From Streptomyces sp. NRRL F-5126 (GTDB lineage Bacteria > Actinomycetota > Actinomycetes > Streptomycetales > Streptomycetaceae): DNA of 64,000 nucleotides. The first letter of the stretch is position 1; each line of letters starts with the position of its first letter. The position numbers and the translations under genes were made by a program. The stretch lies in the NCBI RefSeq assembly GCF_000721265.1, contig NZ_JOFZ01000006.1:186001-250000 (forward strand). Direction: 5' to 3'. The notes under the pieces are model-generated. The model did no database searches and was not told where the DNA came from. It saw only the letters and a program-made list of their open reading frames with translations. Shown here piece by piece: positions 60,796 through 63,342 of the stretch.

Positions 60796-60975
60796 TCAGG
60801 TTGCGCGCGACGCCTGCTCGTCGACGTCGGCGGCAGGCCGGGGCATGAGCGGGGGCGGCGGGCGCACCACGTCGTGCGCACGCTTCCGGATGAGTTCGAC
60901 CCCGTGCTCCTCGCAGTAGGCGCCGTACTCGTCCTCGATGGGGAAGTCGTGACCGCCCTTGAAGCACTGCGTCAT
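60796..60975 (-). CDS. small protein with Cys/His pattern
   Basis: 59 aa from ATG 60975, overlapping the previous stop (ATGA). MTQCFKGGHDFPIEDEYGAYCEEHG has spaced Cys and His residues (C4, H9, C21, H24) that could bind zinc. The C-terminus is Pro-rich and basic. Coupled to the CxxC protein upstream; function unknown. Confidence 0.65.
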   Translation of the reverse strand: MTQCFKGGHDFPIEDEYGAYCEEHGVELIRKRAHDVVRPPPPLMPRPAADVDEQASRAT

Positions 60976-61187
60976 GACGCGCACCTCTCGGCGCAGGCCG
61001 GGCAGGCTCGCGGGAACACGCGCACCCCGTCGGAGTCACGGCGCTCGCCGAGGTCGACGGCGGTGCCGGTCGCCAGTGGACCGCCGCAGTACGTACATGC
61101 GCCGCCGCGGCGCTGCTCGTCGGTGAGCCCGTCCGTGTTTGGATTCGGGTGCAGCGCCTCGGCTGGGGGCCCCGTCGTCTCGGTCAT
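60972..61187 (-). CDS. small putative zinc-ribbon protein
   Basis: 71 aa from ATG 61187. Two CxxC knuckles, CTYCGG (about residue 31) and CPACAERC (about 62), predict a zinc ribbon. It overlaps the next small gene by 4 nt. Start and composition are normal for the chromosome. Function unknown; perhaps a nucleic-acid or protein-binding accessory. Confidence 0.68.
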   Translation of the reverse strand: MTETTGPPAEALHPNPNTDGLTDEQRRGGACTYCGGPLATGTAVDLGERRDSDGVRVFPRACPACAERCAS

Positions 61188-61249
61188 GTTGTGACCGTAA
61201 GTGCGATCGGCGTTACTGAGGGGCAGGAATCCTGTCCCCCAGCCGGCTG

Positions 61250-61278
61250 GTGCTCTGACCGCACAGGTTCGCCGGGTT
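61250..61278 (+). repeat. left terminal inverted repeat
   Basis: Begins GTGCTCTGACCGCACAGG; matches the reverse complement of 62064-62092 at 28 of 29 positions (mismatch at 61271). Confidence 0.88.
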
Positions 61279-61301
61279 GGCGGTCATGACGGTTGGACCG
61301 G

Positions 61302-61520
61302 GTGCCGGTGATCGCCCAGCGGGTGCAGGCCGACGAGGGCACCGTGCGCGAACTACCCCAACCACTGGGTTCAGACGCGGGCCCTGCACGCCTACCTGCG
61401 GCGGCGCGACGCCAACGCCCGCCATCGCGATGTCCTGGCCGCCGAGGGCCGTGAACGCGCCCGCATCCGCGCGGGAAGGGCATCCGCTGGGGTGGACGAC
61501 AACTCGCCCAGGCGGCGTGA
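61302..61520 (+). pseudogene. IS630 family transposase relic
   Basis: VPVIAQRVQADEGTVRE (frame from 61302) matches the N-terminal helix-turn-helix of IS630-type transposases. It is joined, with a frame change at about 61350, to ANYPNHWVQTRALHAYLRRR...DVLAAEGRERARIR and, after a second shift near 61473, GKGIRWGGRQLAQAA-stop, the usual C-terminal end. The DDE catalytic core is missing, so it cannot be active. Identification rests on remembered family sequences and was not searched. Confidence 0.65.
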
Positions 61521-61526
61521 GCATCC

Positions 61527-62021
61527 TCAGGGCTCTTGCTCCCCGGGGGACCATACATACCGGATGTCCGGCTCGTGCTCCTCGTTGCGGTGCCCATCGG
61601 TGGACTCGGCAGCGATGAAGCCGTGCCGCTCATAGAAGCGACGTGCCGACTCGTTGACCTGGAATGTCCACAGTGCCAACCCGGCGGGACGACGCTGCTT
61701 CGCCAGGTGCACGAGGCGGCCGCCGATGCCCTGGCCCTGCCAGGCCGGATCGAGATAGAGCTGCTCCAGGTATTCGGCGTCCAGCACCATTATCCCGACC
61801 ACCGGGCCATGGACCGTCGCCACCCACGTCTCCTGGCCCGGCACGACCACTTCTCGGAACCAGGACCGCACTTGGTCGTCCGTGTGCGCCCGGCGCACGC
61901 TCGGAAGCGCCGCCGCGAAGGAACGCAGCCAGACATCGGCCACGGCAGCAGCGTCGGAGGCGACAGCGCGTCGGAGGACAGGTCCGTTGATCTCCACAGC
62001 GACGCATGCTCGCAGACGCAC
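61527..62021 (-). CDS. GNAT family N-acetyltransferase (cargo of the inverted-repeat unit)
   Basis: 164 aa from GTG 62021; GTG 61997 (VEINGPVLRRAV) would be closer to the family start. The acetyl-CoA motif is LYLDPAWQGQGIGGRLVHLAK (about residues 92-112), with RRFYERHGFIAAES as motif B. The frame is intact, unlike the neighbouring transposase. It ends 7 bp from the transposase relic's stop and is enclosed by the inverted repeats. The substrate is unknown; small-molecule, antibiotic or toxin-type acetylation are all possible. Confidence 0.85.
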   Translation of the reverse strand: MRLRACVAVEINGPVLRRAVASDAAAVADVWLRSFAAALPSVRRAHTDDQVRSWFREVVVPGQETWVATVHGPVVGIMVLDAEYLEQLYLDPAWQGQGIGGRLVHLAKQRRPAGLALWTFQVNESARRFYERHGFIAAESTDGHRNEEHEPDIRYVWSPGEQEP

Positions 62022-62063
62022 GACGCGGCCGCATCCGACTTCTACGTCCTCGAACCAGGACGG

Positions 62064-62092
62064 AACCCGGTGAACCTGTGCGGTCAGAGCAC
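62064..62092 (-). repeat. right terminal inverted repeat
   Basis: Inverted partner of 61250-61278. Its outer end shares base 62092 with the TAG stop codon of the XRE regulator. Confidence 0.88.
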
Positions 62093-63342
62093 TAGGCGGA
62101 CAGGATGCCCAGCTTTACCGCGAGCCCTGCGGCGGCCTGGCGCCGGGCCGGGCTACGGGCCTCCGTCTCTTCCAGCACGATGCGTCGGGCGTAGCCGTTG
62201 TACTTGATCGTCTCAGGTGCGGCCGCGTGCGCCCGCTCCAACGTCGCCAACGCCGTCTGGGCTTGGCCGTCCAGCTGGTAGGCCCGCGCCTCCTCGATGC
62301 GGTGACGGGCCAGCCGCGGCCGCGACGGGATGGCCAGCGCGTCGGAGGCTGCCACCTGCCGGACGCTCTCCCCGCCGGCGCCGAGCTCCACGGCGACGGT
62401 GACGGCGTGGGCGCCCATGATGGCCCGCGAGAACGAGGTGACCGGGTCGTAGTAGCCCGGGGCGAGCCGCTTGGCGGCACGTTGTGCCCGGTCCCACAGG
62501 CCCCACGCTTCCCCGCTCGTGCCGCGCCGCGCGGCTGTGTACCCGGCCTCGAACTGAAGGGCACCCGCGATGGCTTGCACGCCGTCACCGCCGTCCGGCA
62601 GATGAGGGGCCAGGTAGCGCAAGGCCTCCCGGGTGACGGCGTCGGCCGCATCGAAATGGGCGGGACCGCTGTCTCGGTGCGCCTGCGCGGCCAGCCAGGC
62701 GGCGAGGCCGATCGCACGCGGGTCCTCGCTCTCCTGCGCGGCGACCATGCCGCGCTCGGCGACGCGCCAGAGCAACGCGCTGTCGGGCTGGTAGGCGAGG
62801 AAGAACTGCGAGAGCGAGTACACCTCGGAGAGGATCGCCTGCGCTGCTCGCCGGTCGGCGGGCGCGTCTGCCTGGCGCACAGCGAGCTGCGCGTCACGGA
62901 CGAGGTCGGGCAGCAGGCCACCGATGACCTCACGGTGGTTCGGGGCCCGGTGGCGTGCGACCCACGCGCGATCGAGACGTGCCCGCAGGTGCTCGGGCGG
63001 CGGCGCCTTGCGATCGCCGACGACGGGGAAGGCGTTGATCGCGTCGCGCACCGCAGGCAGCCGCGAGTGCCCGGGACCGATGAACAGGTCCACCGGGGCA
63101 GCCTGGTCACCTGTCAGGTCCGAGAGGTCACGGACCCGGAGGACCTCGGCGATCCGGAGGATCGTGGCCAGCTTCGGCGTCTGGATCTGGCCGCCCTCCA
63201 CCTGCTTGACCCAGGACTGCGACCGTCCGAGCAGACCCGCCAGAACGGGGCGGGTCAAGCCACGCTTCTGCCGGAGGATCTGCATGCGCTGGCCGAATAC
63301 GAGAGGGTCGGCGTAGGGGTCCGGGGTAGCGTCTGACGGCAC
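62092..63342 (-). CDS. XRE family regulator with TPR-like C-terminal region
   Basis: 416 aa from GTG 63342, preceded by AAGG. Residues about 17-80 form the helix-turn-helix (RMQILRQKRGLTRPVLAGLLGRSQSWVKQVEGGQIQTPKLATILRIAEVL). The rest is helical with a TPR-like pattern (LARHRIEEARAYQLDGQAQTALATLERAHAAAPE), the layout of many Streptomyces XRE regulators. The stop codon coincides with the border of the inverted-repeat unit, but the frame seems complete. It probably regulated the small genes now located beyond the inserted unit. Confidence 0.87.
   Translation of the reverse strand: MPSDATPDPYADPLVFGQRMQILRQKRGLTRPVLAGLLGRSQSWVKQVEGGQIQTPKLATILRIAEVLRVRDLSDLTGDQAAPVDLFIGPGHSRLPAVRDAINAFPVVGDRKAPPPEHLRARLDRAWVARHRAPNHREVIGGLLPDLVRDAQLAVRQADAPADRRAAQAILSEVYSLSQFFLAYQPDSALLWRVAERGMVAAQESEDPRAIGLAAWLAAQAHRDSGPAHFDAADAVTREALRYLAPHLPDGGDGVQAIAGALQFEAGYTAARRGTSGEAWGLWDRAQRAAKRLAPGYYDPVTSFSRAIMGAHAVTVAVELGAGGESVRQVAASDALAIPSRPRLARHRIEEARAYQLDGQAQTALATLERAHAAAPETIKYNGYARRIVLEETEARSPARRQAAAGLAVKLGILSA

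Follow-up and report, generated by a model that had tools for sequence, protein, structure and literature searches.

The unit and its neighbours

The window, meaning the whole 64,000-nucleotide stretch of Streptomyces DNA analysed here, harbours an 843-bp unit (847 bp, 61248–62094, with the flanking dinucleotides) whose contents run in the order end, transposase pieces, GNAT gene, end. Repeat comparison delimits a left terminal inverted repeat on the transposase side (61250–61278, plus strand) and a right one on the cargo side (62064–62092, minus strand). These 29-bp repeats are identical at 28 of 29 positions, the inverted repeat reaches 36 nucleotides at 92% identity, and the two ends mismatch at 2 of 31 positions. 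The cargo is an intact gene for a GNAT N-acetyltransferase of 164 amino acids (61527–62021, minus strand), characterized by Pfam, by comparison with longer elements and by dN/dS; its reading frame is open and matches PF13508 (4.9e-14). Convergent with it, with 6 bp between the two stop codons, lies a plus-strand transposase remnant made of two pieces: approximately 49 bp from the N-terminal helix-turn-helix region (61297–61345) joined to a C-terminal region (61346–61520, stop codon TGA at 61518–61520) that displays 76% identity to residues 335–379 of an IS630 transposase. The boundaries of these pieces derive from alignment with three longer elements, L053, L074 and L075. The original prediction had described 29-bp ends, matching at 28 positions, around an 843-bp unit containing an intact GNAT gene and a transposase fragment, and the sequence confirms this description.

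On the right, the unit is followed by the target dinucleotide TA (62093–62094, unstranded), which together with base 62092 constitutes the TAG stop codon of an XRE-family regulator gene (416 amino acids, 62092–63342, minus strand). This host gene, recognized by HTH_31 and by its homologs, lies outside the element and is the insertion target; its stop codon consists of the target TA and the first base of the element. On the left, the flanking dinucleotide (61248–61249, unstranded) is TG, a changed TA at a position where TA is expected and is found in most relatives, so that the window unit has no perfect target duplication. Beyond it are a palindrome, GGGGCAGGAATCCTGTCCCC (61220–61239, unstranded), and the next host gene, of 71 amino acids (60972–61187, minus strand). 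Diverged copies of part of this gene (60972–61128), with 78–82% nucleotide identity, occur elsewhere in the source genome, at G000:C6:264469, C1:903819 and C1:825695. The GNAT gene is co-directional with the XRE gene, and its start lies 42 bp inward of the right repeat; transcription may reach it by read-through or begin at a short promoter belonging to the gene.

The unit is present in one copy in the source genome, a 7.18-Mb draft of 167 contigs. Only its two ends match the first 21 bp of the end when up to three mismatches are allowed (reversed control, one hit), and a longer end pattern with at most two mismatches occurs at two sites (reversed control, none).

Homologous sites without the unit

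A scan with the XRE protein identified matches in 68 of 392 genomes at E≤1e-150, and the best 30 loci were taken, one of them being the window's own. None of the 29 others has an end or a GNAT gene beyond the XRE stop codon within the stretch covered, 554 bp for L286 and approximately 1.5 kb for the other 28; these loci are homologs, 71–82% identical, and not all are proven to be the same locus. At the locus of the closest XRE homolog (L266, 81.5% amino acid identity) the XRE stop codon, a palindrome, GGGGCAGGATTCCTGCCCC, and a gene starting ATGACCGAGATGACGGGG are contiguous. A similar palindrome stands close after the XRE stop in relatives, and the start of the 71-amino acid gene resembles that of the gene following XRE in L266; in the window both lie across the unit from the XRE gene. 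The original prediction had named one finding that would count against it, the GNAT gene between these same neighbours without the repeats, and this arrangement was seen in none of the 29 homologous XRE loci.

These empty sites contradict the idea that the GNAT gene is a resident of the XRE neighbourhood, the repeats being a product of chance or a separate feature. Homologs of the gene without an adjoining element do exist (L078–L080, 81–82% amino acid identity), with homology limited to the GNAT module (84–88% nucleotide identity). However, besides the absence of GNAT from all 29 loci, the ends are found within the source genome only at the unit and the same arrangement recurs at other sites in other genomes. 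A resident gene is scarcely credible on this evidence and has been set aside.

Longer relatives with the same GNAT gene

A GNAT scan of the GTDB genome collection found 82 loci, 80 of which were kept and all checked for ends and a transposase. Longer elements with the gene in the same position, in the order end, transposase region, GNAT, end, occur at other sites in three other Streptomyces. The element of genome G012 (L053) measures 1,769 bp from end to end, is flanked by TA on both sides and comprises a transposase region that is whole but frameshifted, the same GNAT gene and the right end; it shares 85% nucleotide identity with the window unit over 745 bp. The full architecture is also present in Streptomyces narbonensis (L074), with TA at one side only, and in Streptomyces diacarni (L075), with TA at both sides. 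As the transposases of all three longer elements look broken or frameshifted, no working GNAT element has been seen.

Compared with these three elements, the window unit is without approximately 170 bp and approximately 760 bp of transposase, and its remnant bears two deletions and a frameshift. The internal deletion that had been postulated is borne out by this alignment, and the proposed placing of the cargo, after the C-terminal part of the transposase and before the right end, recurs in the longer relatives. The order of events initially suggested is contradicted: GNAT was held to have become cargo through the deletion, whereas it occupies the corresponding position in elements that have a transposase region, which implies that it was cargo before the transposase was deleted.

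The longer elements also bear on a composite origin, whereby GNAT was flanked by two IS630 copies and the whole later shrank. Transposase pieces do lie at the cargo-side end of some elements (L062 and L071, N-terminal and inverted; L067, C-terminal), but the right ends of the window unit, L053, L074 and L075 have none, and such an origin is improbable for the unit. A composite transposon with two flanking IS copies was rejected on the same grounds, transposase pieces being found on one side of GNAT only.

Elsewhere among the GNAT loci, a transposase piece adjoins the gene in L076 and L077, the latter also having one end at five mismatches, and L088 has one end and a transposase beside it. No transposase of the same kind lies next to the gene at 75 of the 80 loci, four of which (L104, L111, L134 and L138) show a lone end-like match at five mismatches. 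In a tree of 58 GNAT sequences the window gene groups with L074, L075 and L076 (97/79, just under full support), and L080, which has no element, comes next. Element status needs four changes on this tree, and at least two on well-supported branches, so that more than one capture or loss of the gene is likely.

Pairwise dN/dS between the window GNAT and its counterparts in L053, L074 and L076 is 0.29, 0.24 and 0.26, respectively; comparisons involving L075 and L079 were left out as their reading frame was wrong. Values of 0.24–0.29 would fit a useful function, but they average a history that mostly predates the insertion. Relatives of solved structure are weak and of different kinds, namely yjaB, a streptothricin acetyltransferase and AAC(3)-XI. 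The most likely task would be a protective one, through acetylation of a protein or small molecule, and this is the weakest step of the account.

An IS630 clade that carries genes

The assignment to IS630 made in the original prediction is upheld by an intact relative, the 392-amino acid transposase of L054, which scores 151.5 bits against NCBIfam transpos_IS630 (cut-off 100) and contains DDE_3 by Pfam. Transposases of this type occur at E≤1e-110 in 115 of 392 genomes of the genus; with four candidates scored per genome, counts per genome are lower bounds. The sample comprised 105 loci: 80 from the top of the transposase score list, apart from hits already in the set, 20 regions chosen from the listed end matches with ends 0.8 to 11.4 kb apart, and five more reached via the window and GNAT. 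Elements with a transposase and both ends number 86. Of the 80 loci sampled through the transposase, 65 gave a resolved element, some of the remaining 15 being cut by contig ends, and 57 of the 65 carry at least 250 bp of extra DNA: downstream in 54, upstream in two and on both sides in one, leaving eight bare. The consensus-end rule gave 148 hits in the 707,822 bases of these loci, as against none for the reversed pattern and a total of one for ten shuffled patterns, so the ends were not created by the calling method.

The control was a sister IS630 clade, also from Streptomyces (30 loci, L305–L334, best per genome), analysed with a de novo repeat-plus-TA method. Here 27 of 30 elements have less than 250 bp of extra DNA, with three weak 13/20 calls and spans of 1.12–1.42 kb; L330, one of the 27 bare elements, also rests on a weak 13/20 repeat. 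The same method applied to the cargo clade resolved 27 of 30 elements, 22 of them with extra DNA; two of these 22 long calls (L159 and L164) used wrong repeats, and by the consensus method both have cargo (L190 and L195). The premise that almost nothing normally follows the transposase holds, then, for the sister clade and fails for the cargo clade, whose elements seem, as a rule, to carry an extra gene. This clade was found here mainly in Streptomyces.

On plasmids, the transposase is present at E≤1e-100 on 59 records, 57 from Streptomyces and two from Kitasatospora; no phage record contains it at E≤1e-60. Ten plasmid loci were chosen among 40 of the 59 records as listed, all with an annotated IS630 transposase and with cargo disregarded, and all ten have such ends around the transposase, annotated as IS630 family. 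Annotated genes between the ends encode GNAT (L295, L304), Imm53 (L297), maleylpyruvate isomerase (L298, L301) and a methyltransferase (L303); L296 has Imm51 annotated outside an inner end, and L302 has no annotated cargo. Genome G456 holds seven full-length transposase hits of equal or near-equal score, suggesting recent activity.

The cargo of the whole element set is diverse. Its reading frames form 46 clusters, or approximately 40 types once later IS insertions and errors are removed: clusters CL13, CL20 and CL24 stem from IS that inserted later and CL21 from a piece of transposase, and the automatic choice was wrong or doubtful in L066 (a 51-amino acid frame was picked, the true cargo being Imm51-like), L211 (the same element as L210) and L062. 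A Pfam scan of 40 cargo frames, a few from the same cluster, matched 33 at 1e-3, although one of these matches falls short of the threshold that Pfam itself sets. The families include GNAT types, Imm53, Imm51, SUKH-4, DUF6368, NADAR, S1, alpha/beta hydrolases, glyoxalase-type and CPT-like proteins, APH, aminoglycoside adenylyltransferase-like proteins, mycothiol transferase, methyltransferases, S66, ABC ATPase, MFS, OMP decarboxylase and others; the cargo of L223 matches the MafI immunity family (NCBIfam). To us a protective theme is tentatively visible, into which several cargos (OMP decarboxylase, S1 and the inositol phosphatase type) do not fit. One narrow IS clade acts as a gene-moving platform for cargo that includes the immunity families Imm53, Imm51, SUKH-4 and MafI, as well as enzymes of resistance-like families in a genus that makes many antibiotics.

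Mobility, target sites and small derivatives

Genome G324 contains three copies of one element that are 100% identical over 1,942 bp and have unrelated flanks; G004 contains two copies at 99.8% identity, and near-identical pairs are also found in G172 and G308. The copies in G324 and G004 show that in these relatives cargo and transposase move together. The left and right ends of one element differ on average by 4.16 mismatches versus 5.14 for shuffled pairs (77 elements; 0 of 5,000 shuffles), a difference to which relatedness among elements contributes.

IS630 elements prefer CTAG. The TA target that had been anticipated is correct for the relatives: 74 of the 86 resolved elements read CTA...TAG, equivalent to a CTAG target, and the window unit, with TG on the left and TA on the right, belongs to the other 12. 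Among 169 flanks, reading frames of at least 200 codons open to the junction fall 36 times in the frame in which the element makes the stop, as compared with 20 and 15 times in the other frames; with a filter chosen afterwards (at least 100 codons, GC3 ≥0.85) the figures are 19 versus 3 and 5. By this measure the elements are over-represented at stop codons.

Units devoid of transposase are delimited by the same ends. One of 923 bp (L364:372-1294, genome G024) contains a gene for a LysE-type translocator and another spans 765 bp (L059:2046-2814, genome G219). In L059 a 246-amino acid frame, which looks like a relative of maleylpyruvate isomerase, exits through one end. Genome G012 has 164 end sites, which suggests a MITE swarm; all nine sites examined (L350–L358) are MITEs, of 163 bp (seven) or 189 bp (two), and eight of the nine lie at CTAG. 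Similar MITEs of 163–219 bp are present in G046, G054, G099 and G101, one having been examined from each. The original prediction had also named lone ends unrelated to IS630 as a finding that would count against it. Lone ends are common among the end matches listed, and those examined adjoin this transposase or lie in MITEs or transposase-free units with the same ends.

State of the window copy and relation to known systems

The window unit is very probably what decay has left of an IS630 element with cargo, a transporter IS belonging to this mainly streptomycete clade. The element would have pasted itself into a CTAG containing the XRE stop codon, its G, the first base after TA, restoring the stop; approximately 0.93 kb of transposase would then have been lost while the ends and GNAT stayed. 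At E≤1e-5 no further transposase of the same kind was detected in the source draft genome, where a helper could sit in an assembly gap, nor was the deleted form encountered a second time. With no other such transposase found, the unit is probably stranded, and it should now be movable only if a related transposase is supplied.

The nearly intact, matched ends would also suit a mobile insertion cassette that reached its present position in the deleted form, a related transposase acting on it in trans. L364 and L059 show that such ends can enclose units lacking a transposase, and the seemingly numerous MITEs of G012 suggest that transposases of this kind act in trans. Nevertheless, the deleted form was seen in one copy, no helper was found in the source genome, and the two deletions and frameshift of the remnant look like decay in place; movement of the deleted unit is unlikely. 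Decay of a full element in place is simpler, since neither a helper nor a second deleted copy was found, and the single copy suggests that the deleted form never moved.

Transporter IS are IS with passenger genes, and the available parts of the sources do not name IS630 as one of their families (PMC3129680, PMC9330008). The elements described here resemble them in having one transposase gene, terminal repeats and, inside the unit, a passenger unrelated to transposition; they differ in that an IS630 clade shows carriage in 57 of 65 sampled elements and approximately 40 cargo types. An open transposase frame and cargo within one end pair, as in a transporter IS, are found in L054 and L184–L186, whereas the window copy has pieces of transposase only and is a derivative rather than a member. 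IS231 belongs to the IS4 family. Mobile insertion cassettes include MIC231 of Bacillus cereus, mobilized in trans by the IS231A transposase, and mic-qnrD, according to the accessible part of the source (PMC3913671). The window unit, a passenger between IS ends with its transposase in pieces only, has the structure of such a cassette, and L364 looks alike; it differs in its IS630 ends and TA target, and its movement in trans is putative. The sister clade shares the TA target and a similar transposase, RefSeq naming its query an IS630 family transposase, but 27 of its 30 elements are without cargo. The 163-bp and 189-bp MITEs of G012 have ends in common with the cargo elements and are too short for a gene. 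No IS630 clade with routine cargo was found in the open literature searched, ISfinder and most subscription papers being outside its scope. Transporter IS and mobile insertion cassettes are known kinds, and a gene-carrying IS630 family was not found described there. The window unit alone is modest; the family and the capture series give it weight.

Possible capture of cargo

A possible route of capture starts with an IS that enters CTAG, in many cases where this overlaps a gene's stop codon, and restores the stop. A farther end beyond that gene, supplied by a MITE, a second copy or a cassette, would be used instead of the inner end; the gene would become cargo and the bypassed inner end would decay. 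A right-end remnant matching at least 20 of 31 positions directly after the transposase is present in seven of 68 downstream-cargo elements versus none of 292 control windows, the seven representing four cargo types because four of them share DUF6368 cargo. The other 61 score below 20/31, and the window unit, L053, L074 and L075 are not among the 30 best scores. In the Imm51 element L296 the inner end is intact (28/31) and supplies, with its outer bases, the stop codon of Imm51. L222 and L066, also with Imm51 cargo, are 81% and 86% identical to L296 over approximately 455 bp and have decayed inner ends scoring 20/31 and 18/31, respectively, the latter within the control range.

The outer ends often seem to be of another source, as 38 of 66 cargo-side ends have an A at position 24, compared with 14 of 66 transposase-side ends (Fisher p 3e-5, related elements not being independent). 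The transposase pieces at the outer ends of L062, L067 and L071 are a further line of evidence on capture. The outer 31 bp of L259 equal a MITE end of the same genome, the match being limited to those 31 bp, and the MITE ends of G012 are one candidate source of outer ends.

On a tree of 73 transposase sequences, 52 cargo changes are needed for 41 labels, the minimum possible being 40, and several cargo types sit on distant branches. Shuffled labels require a mean of 61.8 changes, and none of 200 shuffles needs as few as 52; cargo therefore also follows transposase lineage, which argues against free swapping. Some labels are affected by reading-frame errors.

Together these lines of evidence support, and do not prove, capture by the bypassing of an end. 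We regard it as a serious, if tentative, possibility that this IS630 clade builds single-gene cassettes stepwise, via insertion at CTAG and end bypass, into a pool that passes between Streptomyces transposase lineages. If true, repeated capture would yield mobile single-gene cassettes, including immunity, resistance-like and detoxification-type genes. The elements offer a testable series for the change from IS to transposon, and candidate protective genes could be found between these ends. Under the proposed route the XRE gene, whose stop codon (62092–62094) is now made by the element end, is the next candidate cargo.
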